Below, piece by piece: positions 16,659 to 59,454 of a stretch of DNA of 64,000 nt. The position numbers and the translations under genes were made by a program. The first letter of the stretch is position 1; each line of letters starts with the position of its first letter. This DNA is from Methyloversatilis discipulorum (GTDB taxonomy: Bacteria > Pseudomonadota > Gammaproteobacteria > Burkholderiales > Rhodocyclaceae), in the NCBI RefSeq assembly GCF_000385375.1, contig NZ_ARVV01000001.1, forward strand, positions 2,666,001-2,730,000. The letters are read 5' to 3'. A model generated the notes under the pieces. It saw only the letters and a program-made list of their open reading frames with translations, had not been told where the DNA came from and searched no databases.

Positions 16659-17004
16659 AACGTCGGTAGTCGTCGACGCTGTCGAACTGGTCCGCAAACA
16701 GCAGCAGGTGCTGTCGACCGCCCTCGCCGTCCAGCGTGACCGAAGTCCATGCACGCCCCATTCTCGCGGCGCAGGGGCGGCCGCTCAGCGCCTCGCCGAC
16801 GGACTGCACGCAAGCGAGGGATACGCCATCCTCGCTCGCCAGCCCGCACAGGCGCCCCGCTCGCACGCGCGCCGCTACGGTCAGCAGCAGCGAGAGCGCA
16901 CAGAGCGCGATGGCGAGAGGGCCCAGCAATACCGACGCGACCACAGCGGCAAGCGAGGCGAAAAAAAGGGCCACGTCGCGAAGACGTGACCCTTTCAGAT
17001 GCAT
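16558..17004 (-). CDS. YgfX-like small membrane protein
   Basis: A 148-residue protein with two adjacent hydrophobic helices near the N-terminus (about residues 9-42) and a soluble C-terminal part containing [23 protein letters not shown]. This resembles the terminal segment of YgfX/CptA-type proteins, which in gammaproteobacteria are proposed inner-membrane toxins or division inhibitors. I used the ATG at 17004; a TTG at 17037 is also possible. The gene overlaps the 3' end of nadB by about 100 bases. Its first codons contain a strong transcription terminator, so expression from the fabF transcript would be limited. The family call is tentative; no antitoxin partner is visible. Confidence 0.55.
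16961..16995 (-). terminator. intrinsic terminator after fabF, inside the YgfX-like reading frame
   Basis: On the minus strand a 13-bp stem (AAAGGGUCACGUC paired with GACGUGGCCCUUU, one U-G pair) with a 5-base loop is followed by an unbroken U7 tract. It begins 53 bases past the fabF stop and overlaps codons about 4-15 of the downstream small gene. Confidence 0.75.
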
Positions 17005-41654: not shown

Positions 41655-42539
41655 CTAGCGTCGTCGCAGCGCCGGCGCTGAGCCGGTGTGATGCGAGCGC
41701 GCCGCAGCCCAAGCGGCGTGCATGATTCTTTCAAGCCGGACGGCGTCGACCGCCAGTGCGCGGAACACGATGCCGGCGGCGTTCGGCAGATGACTGGCGC
41801 CGGCCAGCGCTCCATCCACCTCGGGCAACGCCCGCAGCACCTCCAGCAATTCGGCATCGGCTGACCCACCCAGCAGCCACAGCGACCCGTGCATGCGCAG
41901 CCCGGCATTCGCGCCAGCGTTGCCGGACAGCCAGTTCTCGCCGTCTATGCACATGCGTTCCCGCGCCAGCAGCTGTCCGTTTCCGTCGCGCACCGTCACC
42001 GCCGCTTCGATACGCGCGAACGATCGTTGCCCGCCGTCGGGGTCGTGCGGCAGGAAGCTGTCGGCGACCACGACCACTGCGCCGTCCGCCAGTGTCACCT
42101 CGACGTCGCTCACCATGTGACTGCCCGGAAACAGGATGAGCGGCGCCGGCATGTATTCGAGCAATGCACCCGGCTGAGCGACCAGCTGCATGCGCTGCGT
42201 CGCCGATCCGCCCTGCATCGCATGCACGATGGTCGACGCCGGCGTCGCAACGTGAGCGCGTGCGCCCTGCCCCACCTCAATACGGCCGGCCAACCGCTCG
42301 TGCTCGAACAGGCCGCCGGACACCGACTGCAGATACACCACGCACAGATCCGGCGCCGAGCCGTCGACATGCAGCGCGCGGCCGACGTGCACCGGGTAGC
42401 CGACGTACTGGCGTCCGAGATAGCTGCGTCCGGTCGCGTCGCACGCAAAGGCGAGATCGACACAGGGCCGCACCTCGACCGGTGGCACGTGCTCTGCCAC
42501 TGGGCTCAGCGCATCGACAAGTGCCGGCTCAGCGATCAA
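41655..42539 (-). CDS. ureD: urease accessory protein UreD
   Basis: A chaperone that with UreF and UreG delivers nickel to apo-urease. The 294-residue protein has the UreD pattern [20 protein letters not shown] and the [18 protein letters not shown] segment. No ATG fits; the TTG at 42539, overlapping the ureG stop by 11 bases, gives the expected length. UreD is last in this operon, unlike the common ureD-first order. Confidence 0.9.
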
Positions 42540-43170
42540 ACAACACCTCCTGCGCGATGCGTTCGACCACTGCGTCGACGCCGTCGCCGCGCGCGCAGTT
42601 GGTCAGCAGCGTCGCCCGGCCGGCGCGCACCTCTTCTGCCTCGCCCACCATGCGCGGCAGATTCACATTCACGTGCGGTGCGAGGTCGACCTTGTTGATC
42701 ACCAGCAGGTCGCACTGCAGGACGCCCAGTCCGCGCTTGCGCGGAATGTCGTCGCCGCCGGCCACGTCGATCACGAACAGCCAGTAGTCGACCAGATCGA
42801 GCGAGAAGGACGATGCGAGGTTGTCACCGCCACTCTCGATCAGGATCAGTTCCAGGCCGGGGTAGGCGCGGTCCAGCTCGTCGGCCGCGGCGAGATTCAG
42901 CGTCGGGTCTTCGCGAATGGCGGTGTGCGGGCAGGCGCCGGTTTCCACCGCCAGCACGCGCTCGGGCGCGATCAGGCCGCTGCGGCGCACGCGCTCGGCG
43001 TCCTCGGCGGTGACCAGATCGTTGGTGATGACCGCGATGTCGGTGCCGCGCGCGATGAAGCGTGGAATGAGCTGTTCCAGCAGCGCGGTCTTGCCGGAGC
43101 CGACCGGGCCGCCGATGCCGACGCGGGCGGCGCCGCGCGGTCGTGCGTGGGAATTCAGTTGTGCGGACAT
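42529..43170 (-). CDS. ureG: urease accessory GTPase UreG
   Basis: A nickel-binding GTPase that powers metallocentre assembly. The 213-residue protein has P-loop [11 protein letters not shown] (about residues 20-30), the metal-binding Cys-Pro-His motif in [13 protein letters not shown], the ESGGDNLA switch and NKVD base-recognition motif. It lies four bases after ureC. Confidence 0.96.
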
Positions 43171-43174
43171 GGCA

Positions 43175-44887
43175 TCACCTCAGCATGTAAAGACGGTTCA
43201 ATGGCACGCGGTCGACCGGCGGGCAGCTGATGACGCGGCCGTCGACACTCACTTCGAAGGTCTGCGGATTGACCGTGATGTTCGGGCAGGCGGCATTGCG
43301 CACCATGTCGGACTTCTGCAGCGTGCGCGTGCCCTTGCAGGGCAGCAGCGCCTTGCGTATGTCGAGCCGGCCGTTGAGGTCGCTGTCGAGCGAGGCGGCG
43401 CAGACGAAGTTGGCCGACAGGCCCTGCGGTGCGCGACCGAAGGCGCCCCATTGCGGGCGCATGATGAGCGGCTCGCAGGTCATCAGCGACGCCGCCGAAT
43501 CGCCCATCGCGCCGTAGGCGATGAAGCCGCCCTTGACCACGATTTCCGGCTTGATGCCGAAGAAGGCGGGCCGCCACAGCACGATGTCGGCGAGCTTGCC
43601 CGGCTCCAGCGAACCGACGTGGTGATCGACGCCAAACGATCGCGCGGCATTGATCGTGTACTTGGCGATGTAGCGCAGGATGCGTTCGTTGTCGGCGCTG
43701 CGCGTGGTTTCTTCGGGCAGGCGGCCGAACTGGTCCTTCATCTTGCTGGCCAGTTGCCAGGTGCGGCAGATCACTTCGTTGATGCGCCCCATGCCCTGGC
43801 TGTCCGAGCCCAGCATCGAGATCGCGCCCATGTCATGCAGCACGTCCTCGGCGGCGATGGTCTGCGCGCGGATGCGGCTTTCGGCGAAGGCCACGTCCTC
43901 CGGCACCGCCGGATTCAGGTGGTGGCACACCATGATCATGTCCAGGTGCTCGTCGAAGGTGTTCACCGTGTAGGGGTTGGTCGGATTGGTCGACGACGGC
44001 AGGCAGTGCTGCAGCCCGGCCACGCAGATCACGTCCGGCGCGTGTCCACCGCCCGCACCTTCGGTGTGATACATGTGGATGGTGCGGCCCTTGGTCGCCG
44101 CCAGCGTGTCTTCGAGGAAGCCGGATTCGTTCAGCGTGTCGGTGTGCAGCTGCACCTGGAAATCCAGGTCGTCGGCCACCGACAGGCAGGTGTCTATGGT
44201 TGCCGGCGTGGCGCCCCAGTCCTCGTGGATCTTCAGTCCGATGCAGCCGGCCTTCATCTGTTCGACCAGCGATTCAGGGCGCGACGAGTTGCCGCGACCG
44301 AGGAAGCCGAAGTTCATCGGCCACTGTTCGGACGCCTGCAGCATGCGACCGACATTCCAGGCGCCGCCGCAGTCGATGCCCACGGTGATCGGGCCGAGCG
44401 AGCCGCCGAACATCGTCGTGATGCCCGAGGCCAGCGCGTGCTCGACCAGTTGCGCCGAATCGAAATGCACATGCACGTCGAGGCCGCCGGCGGTGGCGAT
44501 CAGGCCCTCGCCGTCGCGCACCGTGGTTGCGTTGCCGACCAGAAGTTTCGGATGCACGCCATCCATCACGTGCGGATTGCCGGCCTTGCCGATGGCGACG
44601 ATGCGGCCGTCCTTGATGCCGATGTCGCCCTTGACGATGCCGGCCACCGCGTCGATGACGACGACGTTGCTGATCAGCATGTCGAGCGCGCCCCGGTCGG
44701 ACGTGAGTCCGCCCATCATGCCGAGACCGTCGCGCAGCGTCTTGCCGCCGCCGTGCAGGCACTCGTCACCGGGCGTCGAGAAGTCGTGCTCGATCTCGGC
44801 CAGCAGCGAGGTGTCGCCCAGGCGCACCATGTCGCCTTTGGTCGGTCCGTACATCGCCGCGTAGTCGCGGCGGGTGAGCCATGTCAT
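43175..44887 (-). CDS. ureC: urease alpha (catalytic) subunit
   Basis: It hydrolyses urea to ammonia and carbamate. The 570-residue protein has the nickel ligands HVHFD (His139, His141), the carbamylated Lys219 in [12 protein letters not shown], the catalytic His in VCHHLNP and the Asp ligand region later in the chain. The start [19 protein letters not shown] is conserved. It is preceded by the fused gamma-beta gene and followed by ureG. Confidence 0.97.
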
Positions 44888-44918
44888 GTCATGTTCTCCC
44901 TGTTGTCGATGACAGCGC

Positions 44919-45623
44919 TCAGGCGCCGCGGAAGCCGGCCTGACGCGCCCGCACCAGCGCGTCCGGCAGGCCGGCGGCATCACCGGTCGGGCCTTCGGCC
45001 AGGCGGTTCAGGCCGAACACCTCGCCGCTGCCGCCGAAAGCCACCAGCGTCACTTCCTTGTCCTCGCCCGGCTCGAAGCGCACTGCGGTGCCGGCAGCGA
45101 TGTCCAGGTGCATGCCCCAGGCCTGGGCGCGATCGAATTCGAGCGCGCGGTTCACCTCGAAGAAGTGGAAATGGCTGCCCACCTGTATCGGCCGGTCGCC
45201 GGTGTTCAGCGCGCGCAGCGTGGCGCGGCGACGACCGGCGTTCAATTCCATCTTCCCGTCGGCCGGGATGATTTCGCCCGGCGTGCGCGCCGGCGGTGAT
45301 TCGGCCGGCGCGTTCGCGCCCGGACGTATCGGGTCATGCACGGTTACCAGCTTGGTGCCGTCGGGAAAGCTGGCTTCGACCTGGATCATCGGCATCAGCG
45401 CCGCGACGCCGGGCAGCACGTCGTCGCTGGTGAGGATCTGCGAGCCAAAGCCGATCAGTTCCGCCACCGTGCGACCGTCGCGCGCGCCTTCGAGAATGTC
45501 GTCGACGATGATCGCGATCGCCTCCGGGCAGTTCAGTTTCAGGCCGCGCGCGCGGCGCCGGCGCGCCAGTTCGGCGGCGTTGAATAGGGTCAGTCTTTCA
45601 AGTTCGGTCGGTGTCAGCAGCAT
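44919..45623 (-). CDS. ureAB: urease gamma-beta fusion subunit
   Basis: A single 234-residue chain carries urease gamma (residues 1 to about 100, [21 protein letters not shown] through [21 protein letters not shown]) joined to urease beta (about 110-234, [18 protein letters not shown]...[10 protein letters not shown]). In most bacteria these are separate ureA and ureB genes; fused forms are known, e.g. Helicobacter UreA. The linker is Pro/Ala-rich. No internal stop or ribosome-binding site splits it. Symbol ureAB is descriptive. Confidence 0.93.
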
Positions 45624-45658: not shown

Positions 45659-46402
45659 TCAGTTCGCGAACAGCCGGGCATTGCGCGGCTCGTGGCGCAT
45701 GGCGGCGATGTCGAGCGCCGGTGCGCCGTTCCACAGTTCGTCGGTCGAGGGCGGCGTCGTGTCGATGACGCGCGCGATCAGCGGCCGCGTGCGCGCCAAC
45801 AGGCGCTGACCTTCGGTGTGACCGATCAGACCCATGCGCAGCGCGGCGCCGACCACCGTGGTGCACAGGCCGCTGGCCGCCATCGCGTCGCAGCCGGAGG
45901 CCGACAGCCCGTAGGCGCCCCACACCAGGCCCTGCACCACCGGCAGATGCCCGGGCAGACCTGCGGCGCGCACCTGGTCGAGATAGACCTGGGCGATGCC
46001 GAGACCGAGATCGGCGTGCACGCGAAGCTGCGTGAAGCCGAGCCGACGGCTCGCGTCGCGCCAGCCGCGCACAAGGTTCATCGCCTCGCACAGGCGGTCC
46101 AGTTCGGTCGCCTCGGCCAGTGCGGCCGCGCCACGCTGCGACCAGGCGGAGCGCGCCGCCTGCATCAGCGGCCGGTCGAATCCGGCCCAGCGCTGTTCGA
46201 TGTGGCTGCACAGCAGCTCGAACACCTGTTCGGCGCCGCCAACCTTGCCGTCGAGCTTCAGCGACTCCAGGCCCCACGAGAACGAGGTGGCGCCGCTGGG
46301 AAAGAAGCTGTCGGCGAACTGCAGCATGCCGAGCATGCCGATCGCGTCGCCGCCGCCATCGTCGGGCGACGGAATGTGAAAAGGCGCGTGCGGTGCGTTC
46401 AT
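45659..46402 (-). CDS. ureF: urease accessory protein UreF
   Basis: A UreG-activating chaperone in nickel insertion. The 247-residue all-helical protein has the family's GMLQFADSFFPSGATSFSWGLE start of the core and the C-terminal LFAN. An alternative ATG lies four codons upstream at 46414 and would overlap ureE. It sits two bases after ureE. Confidence 0.9.
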   Translation of the reverse strand: MNAPHAPFHIPSPDDGGGDAIGMLGMLQFADSFFPSGATSFSWGLESLKLDGKVGGAEQVFELLCSHIEQRWAGFDRPLMQAARSAWSQRGAAALAEATELDRLCEAMNLVRGWRDASRRLGFTQLRVHADLGLGIAQVYLDQVRAAGLPGHLPVVQGLVWGAYGLSASGCDAMAASGLCTTVVGAALRMGLIGHTEGQRLLARTRPLIARVIDTTPPSTDELWNGAPALDIAAMRHEPRNARLFAN

Positions 46403-46403
46403 G

Positions 46404-46895
46404 TCAGTGCGCATGGGGAACGGCGAGATAGCGTGTTCCGCCCTGCGCCGGCGCATCGAGCACGATCGCGTCGCCGCGCGTCAGCAGATGCGTCATGCGC
46501 TTCAGATAGCCCTCGCGCGGGCCTTCGAGCGCGATCCACAGGCAGTCTGCTTCGAAGCGCACCTTCCAGTGCATATTGCCGGCGAAGTAGCCGATCTCCA
46601 GCGCGCCGGCCGTGTGGGCGGCGCGCAGCACCAGCCACTGCGGCTCGTCGAGCATCACCAGCACGGCGCGCCCCGGTTCGAGCAGCAGCACGGAGCCGTT
46701 CTCGAGCTGTGCGCCGCGGTCCAGCATCAGCGCCAGTTCGGTGCCACGGTCGGTCACCAGGCGCTGACGGCGGCGGGCCAGGTCGTTGCGCGACAGGCGC
46801 ACGCGCTCGACGCCGCCGTCGTGTTCGATGTGATGCAGCCGGTCGGCAATGTCCGGGTCGGACGCATTGCCGACGATGTCTGTCAGTCTGAGCAT
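46404..46895 (-). CDS. ureE: urease nickel-donor metallochaperone UreE
   Basis: It carries nickel to the UreDFG complex. The 163-residue protein has the N-terminal peptide-binding domain with LSRNDLARRRQRLVTDRGTE and the metal-binding domain with the conserved His in GNMHWKVRF. The C-terminus is short and only weakly His-rich (VPHAH). It follows urtA by 94 bases and begins the ureE-F-AB-C-G-D run. Confidence 0.92.
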   Translation of the reverse strand: MLRLTDIVGNASDPDIADRLHHIEHDGGVERVRLSRNDLARRRQRLVTDRGTELALMLDRGAQLENGSVLLLEPGRAVLVMLDEPQWLVLRAAHTAGALEIGYFAGNMHWKVRFEADCLWIALEGPREGYLKRMTHLLTRGDAIVLDAPAQGGTRYLAVPHAH

Positions 46896-46989: not shown

Positions 46990-48165
46990 TTACAGCGTCG
47001 GGTAGGGATTGGGTTCGATCAGCGGCGATTCGTAGATCAGCTTGACCTGACCGTCGGCGGTGAAGGAACCGATGCGCGCCTGTTTCCACAGGTGGTGGTT
47101 GGTCGCGTGGAACTTCACCTTGCCTTCCGGTCCTTCGAACTCGAGGTTGGCCGAGGCGGCGACCACCTTGTCGACGTCGAAGCTCTTGGCCTTCTCGACG
47201 GCCATCTTCCACAGGTAGACCGCCGTGTAGGCGCTGGCCAGCGTGTCGCCGGTGACGCGCTTGTCGCCGTACTTGGCCTTGAAGGCTGCGACGAATTTCT
47301 TGTTGGCCGGGTTGTCCAGGCTCTGCAGATAACTCATGCAAGTCAGCACGTCCTGCACGTTCTCCTTGCCGATGCCCGACACTTCCTCTTCCGACACGGC
47401 CAACGCCATCACCGTGGTCTTGTTGAAGTTCACGCCGGCCGCCTTGAGCTGCTTGTAGAAGGCGACGTTGGAGCCCCCGACGACGGTGCTCAGAATGATG
47501 TCGGGCTTGGTAGCCTTGATCTTGTTGATGGTCGAACCGAAGTTGGTGCTGCCCAGCGGCAGGTATTCCTCGCCCAGCACCTTGCCGCCGCCCTTGACGA
47601 TGGTCGGGCGCGCGATCTTGTTGGTGACGCGCGGCCAGATGTAGTCGGAACCGATCAGATAGACCGTTTTGCCGCGATTGGCCAGCAGCCAGTTGCAGGC
47701 CTGGATGCACTGCTGGGTCGCTTCGTGTGCGGTGTAGAGGATGTTCGGCGACTGTTCCTGGCCTTCGTAGTAGGTCGGGTAGTACAGCAGGCCCTTCATC
47801 TGTTCAAACACCGGCAGCACGGCCTTGCGCGACGCCGAGGTGTAGCAGCCGAACACCGCCGCGACCTTGTCGCGATCGAGCAGCTTGCGCGCCTTCTCGG
47901 CGAAGGTGGGCCAGTCGCTGGCGCCGTCCTCGACCACAGGTACGATCTTCTTGCCCAGTACGCCGCCGGCGGCGTTGATCTCGTCGATGGCCAGCTTCTC
48001 GGCGTCAACCACCGACGCTTCGGCCAGCGCGATGGTGCCGGTCAGCGAGTGCAGGATGCCGACCTTGACCGTATCGTCGGCCATGGCGTTGCGCACCATC
48101 CACGGACCGGCGACGGATGCGAGCGCAAGGCCTTTGATGATGTCGCGCCTGATTTGATTCTTCAT
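46990..48165 (-). CDS. urtA: urea/short-chain amide ABC transporter substrate-binding protein
   Basis: A 391-residue periplasmic binding protein of the UrtA/FmdD kind. It has a Tat-like signal (RRDIIKGLALASVAG), VKVGILHSLTGTIALAE and AAVFGCYTSASRKAVLPVFE, all UrtA-like. In related bacteria it serves urea or formamide/acetamide uptake. No permease or ATPase (urtBCDE) is encoded in this window, so the transporter partners must lie elsewhere. The gene has its own promoter and a terminator-type attenuator in its leader, both of which are duplicated ahead of dmfA1. Confidence 0.88.
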   Translation of the reverse strand: MKNQIRRDIIKGLALASVAGPWMVRNAMADDTVKVGILHSLTGTIALAEASVVDAEKLAIDEINAAGGVLGKKIVPVVEDGASDWPTFAEKARKLLDRDKVAAVFGCYTSASRKAVLPVFEQMKGLLYYPTYYEGQEQSPNILYTAHEATQQCIQACNWLLANRGKTVYLIGSDYIWPRVTNKIARPTIVKGGGKVLGEEYLPLGSTNFGSTINKIKATKPDIILSTVVGGSNVAFYKQLKAAGVNFNKTTVMALAVSEEEVSGIGKENVQDVLTCMSYLQSLDNPANKKFVAAFKAKYGDKRVTGDTLASAYTAVYLWKMAVEKAKSFDVDKVVAASANLEFEGPEGKVKFHATNHHLWKQARIGSFTADGQVKLIYESPLIEPNPYPTL

Positions 48166-48252: not shown

Positions 48253-48295
48253 AAAAAAAAGGGCCTGCCCGGATCCGGAGATCCAGGGCAGGCCC
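48253..48295 (-). terminator. leader terminator (attenuator) upstream of urtA
   Basis: On the minus strand a long hairpin (10-bp stem GGGCCTGCCC with GGGCAGGCCC, then 5-bp GGATC with GATCC and a 4-base loop) is followed by U8. It lies between the predicted urtA start of transcription (about 48339) and the urtA ATG at 48165, so it would stop transcription before the gene unless it is antiterminated. An overlapping small stem AGGC-AAAAGG-GCCT, using the 5' arm of the terminator, could form the alternative structure. Confidence 0.75.
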
Positions 48296-48351
48296 TTTTG
48301 CCTTGTTCCGCGCCGGCAATGCTGGCGGAGCGGAAAGTTGAATCGATGATA
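48253..48351 (-). repeat. leader module copy 1 (urtA), repeated at 53858-53957
   Basis: The -10 box, a P1 hairpin (outer stem at 48306-48311 and 48330-48335, loop CCAGCATTGC), a short linker and the attenuator are all repeated 5.6 kb away ahead of dmfA1. The P1 outer stem is TTCCGC/GCGGAA here and CTTCGC/GCGAAG there, so the pairing is kept while bases differ. Confidence 0.7.
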
Positions 48352-48374
48352 GGAAGGCTGTTGCGGTGCGTCAA
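48346..48374 (-). promoter_or_regulatory. sigma-70 promoter of urtA
   Basis: Minus-strand TTGACG (48374-48369), exactly 17 bases, then TATCAT (48351-48346). Both boxes are close to consensus. The predicted start is about 48339, roughly 174 bases before the urtA ATG. Confidence 0.75.
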
Positions 48375-48503
48375 GCGTCGGCAACGGCTTTTTTTCAAAT
48401 TCTTTTCGATGGTCCGAGAGCGTGGATGCACACGCTTTCAGATCACAAATACATTGGCATTCTCGTACGCGCACCGACGTTTCGCATGAGCGCGCGCTTC
48501 CCT

Positions 48504-48708
48504 TTGGGAGCTGCCTTCGCAGCGACGCAGCTTCGACGGGCCGCAAGCTCCGATCAAGGCTGCAATCGCGAGCAAGCTCGCTCCCACAAGAGCTCGGCTC
48601 CCGCTACGGGTCACGCGCCCTATGGGAGCGGCCTTGGCCGCGACGCGGGGGCTTCGTGCCGCGGCCTTCGATGCGGGCTGCCGTCGCGGTCAGAAGACCG
48701 CGCCTACA
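48504..48708. repeat. REP/BIME-like palindrome cluster
   Basis: Four related short palindromes alternate in orientation: 48504-48526 (+, GGGAGCTGCCTTCGCAGCGA), 48566-48588 (-, TCGCGAGCAAGCTCGCTCCC), 48622-48644 (+, GGGAGCGGCCTTGGCCGCGA) and 48684-48708 (-, TCGCGGTCAGAAGACCGCGC). This is the layout of bacterial interspersed mosaic elements, as known in pseudomonads. It lies between the urtA promoter region and the last gene of the dmf operon, where it may protect or end that transcript. Confidence 0.7.
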
Positions 48709-49024
48709 AGATCGTGTCGTCTTCATCCGCAGTCGTCGATCTTCGGTACATGAACACACAACGGCCTGCGCCCGGTGCGCTCGACGCACGCGCCGGATGC
48801 AGCCGGTAGCGGCCTGTCATGAAGTCGACCACGGTGCGCGCGGCGTTCACCGACAACGCCGGCTTCCACAGCCAGATGTCGCGCTCGGGATCGACGCCGC
48901 ACAGGCCGAACAGCGCGTGTTCCGGGTCGTCGGCCATGCCTATGGACCACTCGTCCATGCGCGCGCCGAACTCCTTGATGTAGGTGAGGCACTCGAACTT
49001 GATCTGCTGCACGCTATAGCTCAT
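48704..49024 (-). CDS. small protein of unknown function, dmf operon
   Basis: A 106-residue protein (MSYSVQQIKFECLTYIKEFG...) with a conserved-looking N-terminal part and DIWLWKPALSVNAARTVVDFMTGRYRLH in the middle. I do not recognise the family. It follows the Sel1 gene by four bases in the dmf operon. Its last codons and stop (TTG TAG) fall within the fourth REP palindrome, so the C-terminus was partly set by that insertion. No signal peptide or membrane segment is seen. Confidence 0.65.
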   Translation of the reverse strand: MSYSVQQIKFECLTYIKEFGARMDEWSIGMADDPEHALFGLCGVDPERDIWLWKPALSVNAARTVVDFMTGRYRLHPARASSAPGAGRCVFMYRRSTTADEDDTIL

Positions 49025-49028
49025 CGCA

Positions 49029-49718
49029 TCACCCCGGAACCGGAATCAGCCGTGCCGGCGACGACACCGCTGCGGTGCGGCTGCGCCACTGATCGAACAG
49101 CGCGGCCCCCTTCTGTTTCTCTTCGGCCGACATCTGGCCGATCATGCCTTCGAGCGCGTTGAGCGCGCTGCCCACGCCGTGCTGTGCAGCCAGCGACAGC
49201 CAGGCGAAGGCCTGCGCCCTGTCCTTGTCCACGCCCAGGCCGTTGGCGTACATGAAGCCCAGCCGCGCCTGCGAGGGAAAGTGCCCCTGCCCGGCCGCCT
49301 GCCGGTACCAGTGCGCCGCCTGCGCCTCGTCCTGCGCGGTGCCCTGCCCCTTGAAGTAAAGCGTCGCCAGATTGCTCTGCGCCATCGCGTCCCCGGCTTC
49401 GGCCGCCGTGCGCAACCAGCGCAACCCGCGTTCCGGATCGGCCGGCGTGCCGTTGCCCATCATCAGCATGGCGCCGACATTGGTCTGCGCCGGCACATGG
49501 CCACCTTCCGCGGCGCGCAGATACCAGCGGAAAGCCGCCGCCAGATCGGCCGGCACGCCTTCGCCATTCGCGTGCAGCGCACCGATCCAGGCCTGCGCCT
49601 CGACACAGCCCGCTTCCGCCAGCGCCTCGAACAGCCGCGCCGCAGTCACCAGATCGCCGTCGTGGTAAGCGGCCACCGCATCGTCGAGCTGCAGCGTTGT
49701 TTCCATCAGTGCATGCAT
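49029..49718 (-). CDS. Sel1-repeat protein
   Basis: A 229-residue protein made of Sel1-like TPR repeats (about residues 40-190, e.g. AAAFRWYLRAAEGGHVPAQTNVGAML and AAHWYRQAAGQGHFPSQARLGFMY). These form a helical protein-binding scaffold. No signal peptide is present. The ATG at 49718 has GGGAG eight bases upstream. It lies 31 bases after the ring-hydroxylase-like gene in the dmf operon; a role as an assembly or accessory protein for dimethylformamidase is possible but unproven. Confidence 0.82.
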   Translation of the reverse strand: MHALMETTLQLDDAVAAYHDGDLVTAARLFEALAEAGCVEAQAWIGALHANGEGVPADLAAAFRWYLRAAEGGHVPAQTNVGAMLMMGNGTPADPERGLRWLRTAAEAGDAMAQSNLATLYFKGQGTAQDEAQAAHWYRQAAGQGHFPSQARLGFMYANGLGVDKDRAQAFAWLSLAAQHGVGSALNALEGMIGQMSAEEKQKGAALFDQWRSRTAAVSSPARLIPVPG

Positions 49719-49749
49719 ATGGATATCTCCCGGTGTGCGTGATCTGCTT

Positions 49750-50730
49750 TCAGCGCGCAGCGATGCACGCCATCACTTGTGTCTCGATCCATCGTCCGCC
49801 GGCATCCAGCCGGGTGGCGGGGTCGCAGCCGCGCCCGCCGATGCCGCCGCCTTCGATCGCCGACTGCGCCTCCGCGGCGGCGGCGAGACGGGCGTTCAGC
49901 AGCGTCTCCCACGAAAGCGTCGCGTCGTCGCCCCCGAAGATGGCGACGCGGCACAGCGTGCGGGTCAGCGATACCGGCTGCAACACGACGGCACAGCAGC
50001 CTGCAGCGGATGACAGCAGCACCAGATTCGGAAACAGCAGTGCCGCCCGACCTTCGGCGTCGGCACGGCACAGCGCGACGTCGCCCGACACAAGCGTGGC
50101 GGAGGCCGCCAGCAGATGCTGGGCGACCAGCTTCCAGTTGGCGTCGCAGGCGATCCAGCGGCTGCGATGGCTGTCCGCCTGCACATCGGACCAGGCCGGC
50201 AGCACCGCAGTCAGCGCGCGAGCGGTCCGCTGAAAGGACGACCCGTGCGGATCGAGGCTGACGAACAGCAACGGCCCCCAGCTCGCGGTGCGCACCGGCA
50301 GCAGACGCTCAGGCCGCAGGCCCAGATACTGGTACATCTCGGGCGTGCCCTCGCCCAGTTCGCCGGCGGCAATCGCCGGACGATCGAGACTGTGGCCGCA
50401 GGACGTGAACGAGCACGGCGTCTTCGCGCCCTGCTGGCACTGCAGCGGCACCACGCGACAGCCACCGTGCTGCGCCTTGTTGAAGCGGCCGGCCAGGCCG
50501 CCGTCCGGCAGGCGCTGAACATGGATGGCATGGTCGCCGACGGTGAAGGGCAGCAGGTCGCCGGCGGCCGGAATATCGAGCGCGCTGCCCACGCATACCC
50601 ACTCGCGCGTCCAGATCGCATCGTCCTCGGCGCGGGAAAAATCCAGCCCGCGGAAGGCGGCGACGTCGAATGCGCCGCTCCCCAATGGCCGGCGGTGCAG
50701 ATGCACCGGATGTTCGGTCATGCATTCCAT
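49750..50730 (-). CDS. ring-hydroxylating oxygenase alpha-subunit-like protein lacking Rieske cysteines
   Basis: A 326-residue protein with the fold signature of Rieske oxygenase alpha subunits (AIWTREWVCVGSALDIPAAGD, VGDHAIHVQRL). Where the family has C-x-H and C-x2-H, this one reads NKAQHGGCR and FTSCGHSLD: His88 and His113 are kept but the cysteine positions are Ala86 and Ser110. Other cysteines (91, 98, 106, 111) lie nearby and might bind a different metal. The catalytic-domain block is recognisable only as ANWKLVAQHLL, and the usual mononuclear-iron ligands are not evident. GAGGA precedes the ATG. Likely an accessory or regulatory protein in the dmf operon. Confidence 0.7.
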   Translation of the reverse strand: MECMTEHPVHLHRRPLGSGAFDVAAFRGLDFSRAEDDAIWTREWVCVGSALDIPAAGDLLPFTVGDHAIHVQRLPDGGLAGRFNKAQHGGCRVVPLQCQQGAKTPCSFTSCGHSLDRPAIAAGELGEGTPEMYQYLGLRPERLLPVRTASWGPLLFVSLDPHGSSFQRTARALTAVLPAWSDVQADSHRSRWIACDANWKLVAQHLLAASATLVSGDVALCRADAEGRAALLFPNLVLLSSAAGCCAVVLQPVSLTRTLCRVAIFGGDDATLSWETLLNARLAAAAEAQSAIEGGGIGGRGCDPATRLDAGGRWIETQVMACIAAR

Positions 50731-50805
50731 CTGACGAATCCTCGATGTGATGCCTTCTGCGTAGGGTTCGCCCGCAGTGCGGGTGAACCCTGCCCGTGCG
50801 TCAGA

Positions 50806-53202
50806 TCAGCTCTTCGACGCCAGCGCCGGCGACTCGTAATCCGCGCGACCGCGGTGCTTGATCGCTTCCTTCGGAGCGGCCGGCAGTGGGCCATCCTGCA
50901 TGAAGCGGTCGAGAACATTCTTGGTCAGACGCGAAATGTTGTTGTCGCAGTTGTTCCACGGCAGCGAACCGCAGTAGGCGATGGAGCTGAAGGCAAAGCA
51001 GCCGCCGCCATTGGGTGTTTCGTGGAAGGTGATGTCCGCGCGCACGCGCGGGTGCACGGTGCCGTCCAGACCTTGCTGGTTGAAGCCGAAATCCTCCATC
51101 ACCAGCAGGTAGGCCTCGGTGTGACGGCCGGCCGAGGTGGCGACGGTGAGGATGTGCGGCGGCGACCCCAGCATGGTGTCGACGATGTCCAGCTCCAGAC
51201 CGGCCGCGCCGCCGCCGACCAGACCGAAGTTGCCCAGATTCTCCTCGTAGCTGATGCCGTCGAAGGCCCAGCTGACGCGCGGGTCCAGACTTTCCGGCGT
51301 ACGCGAGAAGTAGGACGAGATGTCGAAGCCCTCGGACGACATGCCGGTACCGGCCACCGAGTGCAGGTAGCGGCCGCGGTAGCGCCACATGCCGCCCAGT
51401 TCACCGGTGCCCTGGTGGTAGTACTCGCCCGGATCGGCGCGCCAGGTGCGGATGCCGGATTCGCAGCGGCGCATTTCGGTGACGATGCCGCGGCCCAGTC
51501 CGTCGTAGGCCGGATGGAAGGAATGCACCCAGTACCAGGCATCGGCACCCATATACATCAGGCGGCCGCCGCGCTGCGTGTAGTTGTGCAGCGCGTCGAG
51601 CTGGGTACCGGAGTTGTGCTCGGGGTGCGAGCCGGTGATGATGACGTTGTAGTTCTCCAGCCGGGCCAGACCGTCGTAGGTCACGTCCTCGTCGGTGAAC
51701 ACGTCGTACTCGTAGCCCATCTGTTCCAGCCAGCAGATCAGGTGCAGGTCGGCCGGGTACTGCCAGGGCGCCTGGGCCAGGAAGTGGTCGTACTTCGGGC
51801 GGATGCTCAGGATGGGACGCAGCCGCGACGAAAGGCAGATGCCGCTGCCGTCGGTGTGGGTGTCGTAGATCGAGCCGCCGTACTCACGGTGCTCGGCGAG
51901 GAACATGTTCTGCTGCTGCATGATGGGCACGCGATAGACGAACAGTTCGGCGCCACCCGCGTTGCACGCGACGTGCTCGTTCGCGTAGGCCATGTAGCTG
52001 ATAGTGGGCACCATGACCGCGATCTTCGACTGTTCCTGGCCGATCTTGGGCACGATCCAGAACGGGATGTAGTCCTCGTCACCCTCCGGCGTCGTCAGCT
52101 TGGCCGCGTAGAAGCGGCTCTTGATGTCGGCGGGCACGGTCCACTCGAAGCTCACTTCCCAGCGCGCGTTGTCGAGGTCGTCGTCGTGGAAGTGAATGGC
52201 GCCATATTCCTTCGGTGCGACCTTCCAGTCGAAGGTCTGGCCGGCCCAGTTGTAGCCGGTCAGCGCGCGCGTCGGGCAGTTAACAAGCGTGGCGTCGAAG
52301 CGGTAGGGGCCGGCGTCCTTCGCCACCAGCGTGTCGATGCCGTCGGAAAAGTCCCAGGCGGCGACGATGGCTTCCGACAGCGCGCCGGTCGGGCCGGCGT
52401 TGCGGCGCTCGGTCAGCCCCGGCTGCGCCCCACCCTTCATCATTTCGATCTCGAAGCGCGACAGCGCACGGCTGCACAGGCGCGGGCTGTCGATCTTGCC
52501 GTTGTAGTGACCGCCGACGATGACGCCCTGCGGCAGCGAGGACAGACCCAGCGGCCCAGGCTCGACATGATCAACGTAAGCGGCGATCACCAGCGGCAGG
52601 TCGGTGTGCTCGACCTTGCCCTTGAACGTCGCCTTGACCGGCGGGATTTCGGGGTCGAGCGCATACACCACCTGCGGCTCGTGATACAGCACCACTTCGC
52701 CGGTCATCGCATCGAAGCTGGCGGCGATGAAGTGCCAGGCGTGGTCGCGCAGCGGCGCACCGGTCGTGTAGGTTTCACCGTTGATGCGCAGTTCGACACA
52801 GCCGTCTGTATTGATGAACAGGCCGTAACCCTTGCCGCCCGACCACTTGGTCACCAGGCCCTGGGCGCCGTGCTTCCAGTAGCGCTTGTCGGTCTTCGGC
52901 GTGGTCGGCCAGATCCAGCATTGCAGCGTGAAACTGTCCGGCTTGAGCTGCGGCGCGTCGGCCACGAAGCCGTAGGAGCCGCCGTAGACGACCTGCTTGA
53001 TACCGTCGTAGACGCCTTCACAGTCGGCCTTCACCGCCTTCTCGATGAAGCCGGGACCGCGCGGATTGGTGTCGCCGTTGATCATCTGGACGATGGACGC
53101 GCTGTACTTCTTCGGTCCGTCGCAATTGACGTAGAACTTGATCTTGTCGCCCGGATGGACACTGAACTTGTCGGCGTATCCGGTCAGTCGCATTGCACAC
53201 AT
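50806..53202 (-). CDS. dmfA2: N,N-dimethylformamidase large (beta) subunit
   Basis: It hydrolyses N,N-dimethylformamide to dimethylamine and formate. The 798-residue protein has the N-terminal MRLTGYADKFSVHPGDKIKFYV domain, a laminin-G-like lectin domain (about 85-250), and a glutamine-amidotransferase-like catalytic domain (about 395-790). The Paracoccus enzyme holds a mononuclear iron with two Tyr and one Glu; likely equivalents here are Tyr403 or Tyr406 (ISYMAYANEH), Tyr446 (GSIYDTHTDGSG) and Glu528 (GSHPEHNSG). The ribosome-binding site GGAG lies eight bases before the ATG. The gene follows dmfA1 by 107 bases. Function is by family; activity is not shown. Confidence 0.88.
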   Translation of the reverse strand: MCAMRLTGYADKFSVHPGDKIKFYVNCDGPKKYSASIVQMINGDTNPRGPGFIEKAVKADCEGVYDGIKQVVYGGSYGFVADAPQLKPDSFTLQCWIWPTTPKTDKRYWKHGAQGLVTKWSGGKGYGLFINTDGCVELRINGETYTTGAPLRDHAWHFIAASFDAMTGEVVLYHEPQVVYALDPEIPPVKATFKGKVEHTDLPLVIAAYVDHVEPGPLGLSSLPQGVIVGGHYNGKIDSPRLCSRALSRFEIEMMKGGAQPGLTERRNAGPTGALSEAIVAAWDFSDGIDTLVAKDAGPYRFDATLVNCPTRALTGYNWAGQTFDWKVAPKEYGAIHFHDDDLDNARWEVSFEWTVPADIKSRFYAAKLTTPEGDEDYIPFWIVPKIGQEQSKIAVMVPTISYMAYANEHVACNAGGAELFVYRVPIMQQQNMFLAEHREYGGSIYDTHTDGSGICLSSRLRPILSIRPKYDHFLAQAPWQYPADLHLICWLEQMGYEYDVFTDEDVTYDGLARLENYNVIITGSHPEHNSGTQLDALHNYTQRGGRLMYMGADAWYWVHSFHPAYDGLGRGIVTEMRRCESGIRTWRADPGEYYHQGTGELGGMWRYRGRYLHSVAGTGMSSEGFDISSYFSRTPESLDPRVSWAFDGISYEENLGNFGLVGGGAAGLELDIVDTMLGSPPHILTVATSAGRHTEAYLLVMEDFGFNQQGLDGTVHPRVRADITFHETPNGGGCFAFSSIAYCGSLPWNNCDNNISRLTKNVLDRFMQDGPLPAAPKEAIKHRGRADYESPALASKS

Positions 53203-53309
53203 GGTCGTTTCTCCAGGCCGAGCGCCGCCCTCCGGGGGCTCGGATGCTTTTGCAGTAGGTAGGGTGAAGACGGGTGCGGCCGCAGCCGCCCGTCAGCGCG
53301 AGGCGGTGA

Positions 53310-53750
53310 TCAGGTCACTGGCCAGTTATCGTCGCGCCGCTTGTAGCCTTCGTGGTAGTGCTCGGGCATGCCGTCGGTCTCTTCCATCTCGTCGAGACGC
53401 ATCAGGAAGATGGCGTGCTGGATGTCCTGCTCGCTGGTATAGACGGTGTCGTCGACGAATACTGGCGGCACGCCGCGTATGCCGGACAGACGCCCGATGC
53501 GCCATTCCGCGTCGATCTTGGTGCAGATGACGATGAGCTTGCCCTTAGGCGAAGCGCCGCGCATGCGCAGCAGCACGCGCTTGAGCAAGGGGTCTTCGTG
53601 CACGCCGCCGCTGATATGGGTGGTGTCACCGGGCGTCGCGCACTTGAGCACCGAGAAGCCGGCCACGCCGGCCATGGACTTCACGCACTCGAGGTGCTCC
53701 TGGATCAGCCGGTCGCGTTCCGGCGTGCCTTTCCTGGGTATCGGAATCAC
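53310..53750 (-). CDS. dmfA1: N,N-dimethylformamidase small (alpha) subunit
   Basis: A 146-residue partner of DmfA2. It has an RDRLIQEHLECVKSMAGVAGF helix, KGKLIVICTKIDAEWRIGRLSGIRG, and YTSEQDIQHAIFLMRL, fitting the small helical subunit of the alpha2beta2 enzyme (about 130 residues in Paracoccus). The start is GTG with AGGAGA seven bases upstream; the longer open frame includes the leader and is not conserved. It is the first gene of the operon and is preceded by a promoter and an attenuator. Confidence 0.82.
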   Translation of the reverse strand: MIPIPRKGTPERDRLIQEHLECVKSMAGVAGFSVLKCATPGDTTHISGGVHEDPLLKRVLLRMRGASPKGKLIVICTKIDAEWRIGRLSGIRGVPPVFVDDTVYTSEQDIQHAIFLMRLDEMEETDGMPEHYHEGYKRRDDNWPVT

Positions 53751-53857
53751 TGCACTCTCCTTCAAGGGTTGAACATCTGGAAGCTCCTGTCGCGACCGGC
53801 CGGCACTGGCCAATGCGAAAAATCGCGAAAAATTGCGAAAACACGAAAGCGAAAAAC

Positions 53858-53904
53858 CAAAACAAAAAGGCCTGCCGGATCCGGAGATCCGTGCAGGCCT
53901 TTTT
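53858..53904 (-). terminator. leader terminator (attenuator) upstream of dmfA1
   Basis: The minus strand carries AAAAAGGCCTGC paired with GCAGGCCTTTTT plus an inner CGGATC/GATCCG stem and a 4-base loop, ending in TTTTTGTTTTGG. It lies between the dmfA1 promoter (start near 53945) and the GTG at 53750. The core GGATCTCCGGATCC is identical to the urtA attenuator. Confidence 0.75.
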
Positions 53905-53957
53905 GCCCGTCTTCGCGCCCGGCAGTGTTGGCGGGGCGAAGCGTTGAGTGAATCTTA
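53858..53957 (-). repeat. leader module copy 2 (dmfA1), repeated at 48253-48351
   Basis: Same order as copy 1: -10 box, P1 hairpin (outer stem 53911-53916 with 53936-53941, loop CCAACACTGC), linker GGGC with A5, and attenuator. A small alternative stem GGGC-AAAAAG-GCCT overlaps the 5' arm of the terminator. Sequence between the copies differs mainly at paired positions, pointing to selection for RNA structure. Confidence 0.7.
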
Positions 53958-53980
53958 GTGAGCCTCTTTCGCGCGGTCAA
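53952..53980 (-). promoter_or_regulatory. sigma-70 promoter of the dmf operon
   Basis: Minus-strand TTGACC (53980-53975), a 17-base spacer and TAAGAT (53957-53952). Transcription would begin near 53945, about 195 bases before the dmfA1 GTG. The promoter overlaps that of the divergent amiC-like gene. Confidence 0.7.
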
Positions 53981-53993: not shown

Positions 53994-54029
53994 CGATCAC
54001 GTTTTTTGTCACCCGGCCGCAAACCCGTG

Positions 54030-55196
54030 TCCACAAACGATCCCATCAAGGTCGGTGTTCTGTTCTCGCGTGAGGGCGTGACATCGCGCATCGAAAACAC
54101 GATGCTCGCCGGCACGCTTTTCGCAATCCGCGAGATCAACGATGCCGGCGGCATTCACGGCCGGGAGCTGGTTCCGGTCTACTACGATCCGCAGTCGAAC
54201 CCGCAGCAGTTCCGCTCGCTCGCGACCCGCCTGGTGCAGGACGACAAAGTCAATGTCATCTTCGGCTGCTACATGTCGAGCACGCGCAAGGCGGTGCTGC
54301 CGGTGGTCGAAAGGTGGAACCGCCTGCTGTTCTGCCCGACCATGTACGAGGGCTTCGAATTCTCGAACAACATCATCTACACCGGCGGTGCGCCGAACCA
54401 GAACAGCGCCCTGCTCGCCGACTACATGTCGACCCGCTTCGGCGCACGGGTGTACCTGATCGGCAGCGACTACATCTTCCCCTACGAGTCGAACCGCATC
54501 ATGAGCGACTTCGTGCACCACCGTCAGGGTGGCGCCAAGGTGGGCGAGCGCTATGTGCATCTCGACGCGAAGGAAAGCGCCTTCACGCCGATCATGAAGG
54601 ACATCAAGGCAAAGCAGCCTGACTTCATCTTCTCGACCATGGTCGGCAAGACCACCCGCATGCTCTACCAGGCCTACGCGGACGCCGGCTTCGATCCGAA
54701 GAAGATGCCCATAGCAAGCCTCTGCACCAGCGAGGAAGAGGTATCCGAAATGGGTATCCGGCTGGCCGAAGGTCACTACACGGCAGGCACCTATTTCCAG
54801 TCCATCGACACCCCGCGCAACCGCGACTGCGTGGCGCTGTTCCGCAAGCTGTTCGGCAACGAGGTGCAGCCCAACATGAGCTGGGAGTCGTCCTACTACC
54901 AGGTGCATGTGTTCGCCGACGCCTTCCGCGAAGCGGGCAGCGACGAACATGACATCCTGCTGCCGCACATCCTCGGGCGCGAGTTCGACGCGCCGCAGGG
55001 ACGCATCCGCATCCTGCCGCACAACCACCATGCCCGCCTCTATCCGCGCATCGGCCGGGTGAACAGGGAAGGCCAGTTCACGATACTGGCCGAGACGCCG
55101 GGCGGCGTCGATGCCGACCCCTATCTGGTCAGCCATTCCTTCGACGACTGGAGCACGCGGTTGCGCGTCAATGCGAGCGAAGAGGAATCGACGTGA
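54030..55196 (+). CDS. AmiC-like cytoplasmic amide-sensing regulator
   Basis: A 388-residue type I periplasmic-binding-protein fold without a signal peptide. It has IKVGVLFSREGVTSRIE at the N-terminus and NVIFGCYMSSTRKAVLPVVERW, close to UrtA but cytoplasmic. In Pseudomonas AmiC binds short amides and releases AmiR. Here it is the first gene of a pair with an AmiR-like protein (GTGA overlap). The start is set at GTG 54030, since family proteins begin at about this point; a TTG at 54006 is in frame. It is divergent from dmfA1, so DMF, formamide or another amide is the likely ligand (inference). Confidence 0.85.
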   Translation, partial: STNDPIKVGVLFSREGVTSRIENTMLAGTLFAIREINDAGGIHGRELVPVYYDPQSNPQQFRSLATRLVQDDKVNVIFGCYMSSTRKAVLPVVERWNRLLFCPTMYEGFEFSNNIIYTGGAPNQNSALLADYMSTRFGARVYLIGSDYIFPYESNRIMSDFVHHRQGGAKVGERYVHLDAKESAFTPIMKDIKAKQPDFIFSTMVGKTTRMLYQAYADAGFDPKKMPIASLCTSEEEVSEMGIRLAEGHYTAGTYFQSIDTPRNRDCVALFRKLFGNEVQPNMSWESSYYQVHVFADAFREAGSDEHDILLPHILGREFDAPQGRIRILPHNHHARLYPRIGRVNREGQFTILAETPGGVDADPYLVSHSFDDWSTRLRVNASEEEST

Positions 55197-55819
55197 GCAG
55201 TCCGCCGCGCACAGGCGTACGCAGCAAGCGGATCACGCCGGAGTTCCTGACCCAGCTGCGCAATCTGCGCATCGTCGTGCTGCATCCGCGCGACGCCGAC
55301 GGCGAGGTGCTGATCCAGCAACTGAAGCGCATAGGCTGCCAGGTGCAGACCTTCTGGCCGCCGGTGCAGGACATCCCGGACAACGTCGATGTCGTGTACT
55401 ACGCGATCCAGTCCAACGAGATGCACGCGCCGCTGAACTTCAGCAATTTCGAACAGCCGCCGGCGGTGATCGCCGTCGTCGGCTACGAGAACCCGACCAT
55501 CTTCGAGGTCATGCTGCGCCTCGGTGCGACCGGCGTGCTCAGCGCCCCGCTGCGCTCGACCGGCGTGCTCGCCTCACTGGTGCTGACAGTCGGCCTGACG
55601 CAGGAAATGCGCGGCTACCGGAAGCGGGTACAGCGGCTGGAGCAGAAGCTGCTCAGCGTGAACCAGATCAACGACGCCAAGGCCATCCTGATGCGCACCC
55701 GCGGCGTCAGCGACGCCGAGGCCTACAAGATCATCCGCGAACAGGCCATGAGCAAGCGGGTAGCGACCGAGGAGATCGCGCGGGCGATCATTCATGCGGA
55801 CGAGATACTTTCCGGATAG
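55193..55819 (+). CDS. AmiR-like ANTAR-domain transcription antiterminator
   Basis: A 208-residue protein with a pseudo-receiver domain (LRIVVLHPRDADGEVLIQQL, residues about 25-130), a coiled-coil (QEMRGYRKRVQRLEQKLL), and a C-terminal ANTAR RNA-binding domain (INDAKAILMRTRGVSDAEAYKIIREQAM, about 158-205). ANTAR proteins bind paired hairpins in leader RNA and prevent terminator formation. Two leader modules with terminators lie in this window ahead of urtA and dmfA1 and are the obvious targets. The GTG start overlaps the amiC-like stop. Confidence 0.9.
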   Translation: MSSPPRTGVRSKRITPEFLTQLRNLRIVVLHPRDADGEVLIQQLKRIGCQVQTFWPPVQDIPDNVDVVYYAIQSNEMHAPLNFSNFEQPPAVIAVVGYENPTIFEVMLRLGATGVLSAPLRSTGVLASLVLTVGLTQEMRGYRKRVQRLEQKLLSVNQINDAKAILMRTRGVSDAEAYKIIREQAMSKRVATEEIARAIIHADEILSG

Positions 55820-57780: not shown

Positions 57781-59454
57781 TCAGAACAGCCCCGACACCT
57801 TGCCGTGCTCGTCGATGTCGATCTTTTCCGACGCCGGCACCTTGGGCAGGCCCGGCATGGTCATCATGTCGCCGCAGATGGCAACGACGAAACCGGCGCC
57901 GTTGGCCAGGCGCACTTCGCGCACGTTAAGCGTGTGGCCGCTCGGTGCGCCCTTTGCGTTCGGGTCGGCGGAGAAGGACATCTGGGTCTTCGCCATGCAG
58001 ACCGGGAAACGGCCGTAGTCGGCGTTCCAGCTTTCGAGTTGCTTGCGGGCCGCGTCGGAGAAGGTGACCGCACCGGCGCCGTAGATCTTGGTGGCGATGG
58101 TGGTGATCTTGTCCTGCAGCGTGGCGTTCTCGTCGTAGACGAAGCTGTGCTTGCCCGGTGCGTTGTCGCAGATGTCGGCAACCATGCGCGCCAGTTCCTC
58201 GGCGCCGGCACCGCCGCTCGCCCAGTGGCGGGCGATGACGAACTTGCCGCCGAGCGCTTCGATGCGGCTTTTCAGCAGCGCGATTTCGGCGTCGGTGTCG
58301 AAGGTGAAGTGGTTCACCGACACGACGCACGGCAGGCCGTAGTGCTCGGTGATGTTCTTCAGGTGGCGCTCGATGTTGACGATGCCCTTTTCCAGCGCGG
58401 CCAGATTTTCCTGGTTCAGGTCTTCCTTCTTCACGCCGCCGTGGAATTTCAGCGCGCGGATGGTGGCGACCAGCACGACGGCCGACGGGTTGAGCCCGGC
58501 CATGCGGCACTTGATGTCGATGAACTTCTCGGCGCCGAGGTCGGCACCGAAGCCCGCTTCGGTCACGACGTAGTCAGCCATCTTCAGGCCGGCCTTGGTC
58601 GCGGTGACCGAGTTGCAGCCGTGCGCGATGTTGGCGAAGGGGCCGCCGTGAATGATGGCCGGGTTGTTCTCCAGCGTCTGCACGATGTTCGGCTTGATCG
58701 CGTCCTTCAGCAGCGTGGCCATGGCGCCCTGCGCCTTCAGGTCGCTCGCGTACACCGGCTTCTTGTCGCCCAGCGTGTAGCCGATGATGATGCGGCCGAG
58801 ACGTTCCTTCAGGTCCATCAGCGAATTGGCCAGGCACAGGATGGCCATGACTTCGGACGCGACCACGATGTCGTAGCCGTCCTCCCGCACGAAGCCGTTG
58901 GCGGTGCCGCCCAGGCCGATGGTGATCTTGCGCAGCGCGCGGTCGTTCATGTCGACCACCCGCTTCCACTGGATCAGGCGCGGGTCGATGCGCAGTTCGT
59001 TGCCGTGGTTGATGTGGTTGTCGATCAACGCCGACAGCAGGTTGTGCGCGGCACCGATCGCGTGGAAGTCACCGGTGAAGTGCAGGTTGATGTCTTCCAT
59101 CGGCACGATCTGCGCGTAGCCGCCACCTGCCGCACCGCCCTTGACGCCAAACACCGGCCCCAGCGACGGTTCGCGCAGGCAGATCATGGTCTTCTTGCCG
59201 ATACGGTTCAGCGCATCGCCCAGACCGACGGTGGTCGTGGTCTTGCCCTCGCCGGCCGGCGTCGGGCTGATCGCAGTGACCAGGATGAGCTTGCCGTCAG
59301 GACGGTCCTTCAGGCTGTTCAGGTAGTCGAGCGACACCTTGGCCTTGTAGTGGCCGTAGGGCTCGATCGCGTCTTCCGGGATGCCCAGCTTGGACACCAC
59401 CTGGCTGATGCGCTGCATTTTCGCCTGCTGGGCGATTTCGATATCGGATGCCAT
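57781..59454 (-). CDS. ftfL: formate--tetrahydrofolate ligase
   Basis: It makes 10-formyl-THF from formate and ATP, the entry of C1 units into the serine cycle. The 557-residue protein has the ATP-binding loop [16 protein letters not shown] (about residues 66-80) and the [21 protein letters not shown] segment conserved in Fhs/FtfL proteins. It is encoded with mcl, ppc and mtkB in one direction, which supports a methylotrophy role. The start [13 protein letters not shown] has a poor ribosome-binding site. Confidence 0.96.

Follow-up and report, generated by a model that had tools for sequence, protein, structure and literature searches.

Are two neighbouring operons of Methyloversatilis discipulorum, one carrying urease genes behind an urtA-like gene and the other encoding dimethylformamidase, switched on by a single amiC/amiR-like gene pair acting on two related leader RNAs? 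The question is raised by a 64,000-nucleotide stretch of this genome (hereafter the window; the genome is 4.25 Mb, in a single contig), whose minus strand carries both operons behind leaders of the same kind: leader U heads urtA-ureEF-AB-C-G-D and leader D heads dmfA1-dmfA2. A sequence-only reading of the window had placed the pair at 54030-55819 and proposed that it controls both operons. The genes concerned are the following:

46990..48165, minus strand: urtA-like substrate-binding protein with an N-terminal leader, first gene of the U operon
46404..46895, minus strand: ureE
45659..46456, minus strand: ureF
44919..45623, minus strand: ureAB fusion (urease gamma/beta)
43175..44983, minus strand: ureC (open reading frame; the true start is probably inside)
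42529..43170, minus strand: ureG
41655..42539, minus strand: ureD
53310..53750, minus strand: dmfA1, likely small subunit of N,N-dimethylformamidase, GTG start, in 11 AmiR-bearing Methyloversatilis genomes
50806..53202, minus strand: dmfA2, N,N-dimethylformamidase large subunit family (6lvb, E 1.4e-157; PF20254)
54027..55196, plus strand: amiC-like ligand sensor, mature-like N-terminal start (1pea, E 1.8e-84)
55193..55819, plus strand: amiR-like antiterminator, AmiR_N and ANTAR domains (PF21332 and PF03861 over cut-off; 1qo0 chain D, E 4.8e-25)

The regulatory genes, which are divergent from leader D, encode an AmiC homologue alongside a protein with both the AmiR_N pseudo-receiver and the ANTAR domain. 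The identities first given to the pair stand (Pfam, 1pea, 1qo0), while for the start of amiC GTG 54027 is more likely than the one assigned; no signal peptide is visible in the sequence of the amiC-like protein. DmfA1 gives a weak match to the small subunit of known structure (6lvb chain B, E 0.18). The window urtA encodes a lone binding protein, without permease genes alongside, and a complete urtABCDE set lies elsewhere in the same genome (G000:C1, about 1520600-1525600, stretch L258). Neither scan nor covariance model found a dual-hairpin leader near that set, and no repeats were found upstream of urtA. According to the accessible text of PMC10392092, Trp120 and Gln144 are needed for urea binding by Prochlorococcus UrtA. 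The equivalents, in alignments read by eye, are Tyr/Tyr in window UrtA and Tyr/Met in AmiC, differences that say little about the ligand since a UrtA paralogue of the genus (G005) likewise has no Gln144 equivalent. Between dmfA2 and a Sel1-repeat gene, a 326-residue protein is encoded on the minus strand (49750-50730) that has no Pfam match at E 0.1, is 55-98% identical within the genus and looks vaguely Rieske-like by eye. Close to the dimethylformamidase operon lies a formate--tetrahydrofolate ligase gene (57784-59454, minus strand), whose product could use formate released through that operon.

Both leaders follow the order sigma-70-type promoter, P1 hairpin, linker, P2 hairpin/intrinsic terminator:

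48346..48374, minus strand: U promoter TTGACG-17-TATCAT, pattern kept in 11 genomes
48306..48335, minus strand: U leader P1 hairpin, hexaloop AGCAUU at 48318-48323 (folding, alignment, covariation)
48290..48303, minus strand: U leader P2 hairpin AGGC-AAAAGG-GCCU, overlapping the terminator 5' arm (sequence, alignment, covariation table)
48253..48299, minus strand: U intrinsic terminator, T8 at its end (sequence, folding)
53952..53980, minus strand: D promoter TTGACC-17-TAAGAT (promoter scan), pattern kept in 11 genomes
53911..53941, minus strand: D leader P1 hairpin, hexaloop AACACU at 53924-53929 (folding, alignment, covariation)
53895..53908, minus strand: D leader P2 hairpin GGGC-AAAAAG-GCCU, overlapping the terminator 5' arm (sequence, alignment, covariation table)
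53864..53904, minus strand: D intrinsic terminator (sequence, folding)

Inspection of sequence and folding found both modules again where they had been reported, on the minus strand, together with the small stem said to overlap the 5' arm of the terminator. P1 consists of a stem of about ten pairs, interrupted by a C.C mismatch and closed by C-G beneath a six-base loop, and P2 of a four-pair stem that likewise carries six loop bases; each leader thus holds two stem-loops of at least three pairs, and the C-G closing pair is present in both hairpins of U and D. The P1 mismatch, one pair below the loop (48316-48325 and 53922-53931, minus strand), is kept in 27 of 42 curated elements. Since the loop and 3' arm of P2 lie within the terminator 5' arm in both leaders, P2 and the terminator are mutually exclusive, and folding of the naked RNA prefers the terminator. 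Folding energies were -57.5 and -56.8 kcal/mol (z -7.6 and -9.0), equalled by none of 200 shuffles. A simple terminator scan listed no terminator in either leader region, which I attribute to the scan rule, unsuited to a bulged stem in which A-tract and T-tract pair with each other.

Such strong terminator folds might also be read as ordinary terminators beside an unrelated stem, without any regulation, the more so as most weak matches of the leader model elsewhere (see below) resemble plain terminators by eye. This reading is contradicted by a conserved same-strand promoter just upstream, which puts each terminator inside the leader of its own transcript, and by the gene upstream of D, the divergent amiC. 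The promoters had been described as near-consensus, and a promoter scan agreed, with one match per leader region against a shuffled mean of 0.0. The pattern TTGAC.-(16-18)-TA...T is matched by all 22 leaders of 11 genomes with a spacer of 17 or 18, and the distance from promoter to P1 is constant across them.

Pairing in homologous leaders bears on the same alternative. The claim that the P1 stems keep pairing through base changes was upheld by an alignment of 17 leaders, 13 of them distinct, in which 6 of 11 P1 pairs change on both sides: double-change cells numbered 22, against a shuffled mean of 6.5, and the score was reached by none of 500 shuffles. Because these shuffles keep kinship in the signal, slid registers, which preserve kinship, serve as control, and sliding the register lowered the paired cells from 96.4% to at most 49.2%. 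P1 pairing is conserved and covarying in the leaders of the genus. The outer stem shows the double substitutions TTCCGC/GCGGAA, CTTCGC/GCGAAG, TCACGC/GCGTGA and CTTCAC/GTGAGG, and the core CGCCARCAYUGCCGR is nearly invariant across the 17 aligned leaders. A varying stem around a near-constant core is what would be expected if a protein read the loop and the stem had only to be folded. P2 is paired in all 13 distinct rows, but three of its four pairs never vary, and the wider element set has G-C/A-U exchanges at two stem levels; support for P2 rests on conservation and these exchanges rather than on strong covariation.

If the leaders serve AmiR, the two should be inherited together. AmiR, both leaders, dmfA2 and the leader-linked urtA occur jointly in 11 of 13 Methyloversatilis genomes and are absent from the other two, G005 and G007. 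Each of the 11 AmiR-bearing genomes has two strong leaders (at least 91 bits), and none as strong exists in the other two, where the weak matches amount to one site at E 0.02 in G005 and none at E 0.1 in G007. The window genome has no further leader sites beyond U and D at the thresholds used. The same presence pattern is shared by dmfA2 (94-100%), whose orthologue is missing in G005 and G007 (the latter has a 38% relative), and by the leader-linked urtA (89-100%), missing in both genomes, which retain a 60% paralogue. Given that P1 covaries and that leaders and AmiR are present or absent together across the 13 genomes, unregulated terminators are a highly improbable account of these hairpins.

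Leaders of this kind were also sought in other lineages of the order. A covariance model, R1, built from Methyloversatilis leaders only and therefore giving rough E-values, matched 28 of 399 order genomes, the window genome included, at E <=0.1. Its strongest match outside the genus, in G090, lies on the contig of that genome's amiR (AmiR_N) gene, with a second leader alongside; the two dual-hairpin leaders (L124:16175-16255 and 16657-16737, minus strand), some 480 bases apart, precede a cytosine-permease-like gene, a MetX-like hydrolase gene and an urtA-like gene. A direct look at the AmiR_N loci gave a dual-hairpin leader with terminator in 23 of 28 (L112-L139; 29 were fetched, L140 being excluded for an AmiR_N score of 27.2 bits, right at the cut-off, and the leader of L126 was located in the adjoining stretch L208). 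Directly after the leader, 18 of these have an urtA-like gene, four (L112, L131, L135, L138) a gene for a carbon-nitrogen hydrolase of the aliphatic amidase family (PF00795) and one a cytosine-permease-like gene. No leader was detected in L127, L129, L133, L136 and L139, of which L127 and L136 are on short contigs. Among remoter AmiR_N loci (L189-L207) a leader was accepted in 2 of 19, before an urtA-like gene in L189 and a carbon-nitrogen hydrolase gene in L191, and seven remote AmiR loci, searched under relaxed settings, yielded no canonical A1/G4 leader. Achromobacter loci had a leader in two of eight (L013, L014); of the six leaderless stretches, five start at the urtA-like frame and the sixth, L020, shows no frame of that type. 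The 4 kb contig L008 had no leader. These yields come from a leader finder that overlooks any leader whose P1 has two mismatches, the window U leader being one of them. In G311 a leader (L138:6042-6133, plus strand) and an amidase-type gene accompany a partial AmiR_N frame with no ANTAR match, perhaps a decayed regulator. In G068, with no AmiR_N match, a P1-like hairpin and AGGC-AAAAA-GCCU stand before a terminator (L054:1501-1576, minus strand), either by chance or as another ANTAR target.

Leaders with competing hairpins are a common form of riboswitches and translation-coupled attenuators. The hairpins of U and D compete in this manner, so that direct sensing of an amide or amino acid by the RNA has to be considered, but I find it barely credible: both hairpins are small, inspection by eye revealed no start codon accompanied by a ribosome site ahead of the terminator, the leaders match no Rfam family at the gathering score, and the element adjoins genes for RNA-binding proteins in several families. 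The Rfam matches that did appear (Thr_leader and others) were weak, each scoring under half the gathering score, and were judged to be chance.

Co-occurrence, covariation, conserved order and leaders beside AmiR elsewhere support the original proposal that the amiC/amiR pair controls both the dimethylformamidase and the urtA-urease operon. The U and D leaders are thus very probably AmiR-responsive transcription attenuators, through which AmiC and AmiR would exert antitermination of both operons. Leader anatomy, covariation, conservation and co-occurrence are observed, and onto them ligand release, RNA binding and antitermination can be projected from the amidase system of P. aeruginosa and the eut system of E. 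faecalis. RNA polymerase would start at the constitutive-looking promoter and P1 would fold at the very 5' end of the transcript. Without inducer the terminator would form and transcription would stop ahead of urtA or dmfA1. Binding of a small amide (formamide, DMF, urea or a relative) by AmiC would release AmiR, whose ANTAR domains would then bind the P1 and P2 hexaloops; with P2 held, the terminator 5' arm would be tied up and transcription would run on. One sensor pair would in this way switch on dimethylformamidase and the urtA-urease operon together.

Can ANTAR domains be expected to read these loops? Published ANTAR targets have A1 and G4, according to the accessible text of PMC3369931, PMC8164766 and PMC7496416. 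The window loops (P1 AGCAUU and AACACU, P2 AAAAGG and AAAAAG) have A1 and A4 in all four, in keeping with the earlier remark that A1 is present without G4 and that the RNA may be a variant. A1 is likewise found in 22 of 22 leaders, and G4 is absent from both loops, A4 standing in both hairpins of the 22 leaders from 11 Methyloversatilis genomes, a count made with a pattern that fixed A1 and A4 beforehand and equal to the 22 strong model matches. A4 also occurs in other lineages. Among the 42 curated elements, of which 17 are Methyloversatilis near-copies, A stands at P1 position 4 in 23 and G in 19, while at P2 position 4 there are 30 with A, 11 with G and one with U; of the 25 elements from outside the genus, 6 carry A4 in P1 and 19 carry G4. 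Loop-to-loop start distance is 24-26 in 40 of the 42. A1 and the closing pairs are in this table partly by construction, as the P1 search strings held C-A...-G and the P2 search required C-G. When closing pair and first base were left free, 33 of 40 target-gene matches had P1 A1, with C-G closing in P1 of 32 and in P2 of 31 of the 33, which agrees with the closing C:G and A1 of NasR-selected RNA in the available text of PMC7496416; the seven matches without A1 were judged to be chance. Five of the 23 leader loci (L114, L116, L117, L118, L121) have U as the first base of the P2 loop. A second AmiR_N type (f23, f29; L118:9425, minus strand, and L114:4845, plus strand) has the P2 loops UACGAA/UAUGAA, combining U1 with G4.

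P1 A4 was found in Methyloversatilis, G153, G090 (both leaders), G037 and G352 (one family) and G454, that is, in four AmiR lineages outside Methyloversatilis. On the AmiR tree, several rows of which are long branches, the A4/G4 distribution needs four changes (bootstrap range 3-4), one of them forced by well-supported branches. Some looseness at A1/G4 is already known in actinobacteria, where a survey found both letters conserved only somewhat above 50% (PMC8164766, accessible part). Without G4, the window RNA is filed as a variant rather than a plain member of the ANTAR-target motif: its hexaloops represent a naturally occurring A1/A4 form of the motif published as A1/G4.

The missing G4 matters because, in the available text of PMC8934654, G4 stacks on Tyr164 in the EutV-RNA structure, the sole base-specific contact there, and because the changes G32A and G56A in eut leaders reduce induction by EutV, in that of PMC3369931. 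By canonical recognition, AmiR would accordingly be predicted to bind the A4 loops weakly. Window AmiR keeps the equivalents of Tyr164 and Met172 and has Asn and Asp at EutV Lys143 and Lys147. The A4 loops, these two residues and the little covariation of P2 are counted against the mechanism, as are the 5 of 28 leaderless loci, the yield of 2 in 19 remoter loci, the partial AmiR_N frame of G311 and the 7 of 40 matches without A1. Of 34 rows, 30 show agreement between ANTAR residue 147 and the letter at P2 position 4, and 29 show it for P1 position 4. With just two (P2) and one (P1) independent pairs on supported branches, and with G611 (Gln147, G4/G4) and G325, G041 and G296 (Arg147, P2 AAAAGA) as counter-examples, no conclusion was drawn on residue 147 as determinant of loop type.

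The window genome has three ANTAR genes, namely AmiR, a nitrate-linked gene and one for a receiver-ANTAR protein, so that the leaders might answer to one of the latter two instead of the neighbouring AmiR. The nitrate-linked ANTAR gene is followed by a leader of its own and then by genes for an NMT1-like binding protein and ntrB- and ntrCD-type transporters. This leader (L262:9200-9780, minus strand), which has an extra hairpin in its linker and had escaped an earlier, stricter scan of the region, carries hexaloops AACGUG and AAGGGU, both A1/G4, at a loop-to-loop distance of 43-44. Control of U and D by another ANTAR protein looks very unlikely, as the nitrate-linked ANTAR gene has an adjacent leader with canonical loops and the two AmiR-less genomes of the genus (surveyed for AmiR only) lack strong leaders. 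The search, which covered the best non-AmiR ANTAR gene of eight genomes and three receiver-ANTAR genes with A1 required and position 4 free, also found leaders at a like place in G001, G003 and G006, with A1/G4 in both loops; the nitrate link was checked in the window genome (G000) only. No leader of this second type was found in G011, G153, G037 or G352, nor beside the three receiver-ANTAR genes.

A4/A4 and G4/G4 leaders therefore coexist in four Methyloversatilis genomes (G000, G001, G003, G006). A tentative idea, which I hold to be somewhat doubtful, is that position 4 is a specificity letter, read as A4 by AmiR-type proteins of Methyloversatilis and certain other lineages, that keeps their leaders apart from the G4 leaders of another, nitrate-linked ANTAR protein in the same cell. 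An acidic or small residue replacing Lys/Arg at EutV position 147 is a candidate for the matching change in the partner, on the comparison of two independent pairs. Two or more ANTAR genes are present in 8 of 10 genomes with P1 A4 (five of the ten from one genus) and in 7 of 14 with P1 G4, counts that leave out G311 (no ANTAR match), retain kinship and are suggestive at most in favour of such insulation.

AmiC-AmiR control, as proposed, would give the dimethylformamidase and urease operons a common regulator at the RNA level, and the natural A4/A4 leaders provide ready RNA-protein pairs for studying how ANTAR proteins choose their targets. The literature searched, in the portions accessible and exclusive of supplements and most subscription journals, mentioned no dimethylformamidase under ANTAR control and no class of ANTAR leaders with A4. 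The proposed system is closest to AmiC-AmiR of P. aeruginosa and its amiE leader, sharing the paired AmiC-like sensor and AmiR-type protein and the terminator in the leader of the controlled operon. It differs in having two operons, dimethylformamidase and urtA-urease, in place of amidase, and in its A4 loops, the amiE leader, known here by description, being stated in the accessible text of PMC3369931 to have A1 and G4. With the dual-hexaloop RNA of E. faecalis EutV the leaders share two hairpins, hexaloops, A1, close spacing and a P2 that overlaps the terminator; unlike that RNA they have A4 in each loop and, one pair down from the P1 loop, a C.C mismatch, and the window ANTAR domain has Asn/Asp where EutV has Lys143/Lys147. 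Nitrate systems of the NasS-NasT type likewise combine an ANTAR protein with a leader, and the one before the nitrate-type transporter operon of the same genome differs from U and D in its G4 loops and wider loop-to-loop distance. Finally, dmfA1A2 of Paracoccus aminophilus encodes an enzyme of the same family and is substrate-induced, but there the regulator, DmfR, is a LuxR-family transcription activator (PMC4543880, available text), whereas in Methyloversatilis the control proposed would act on the RNA.
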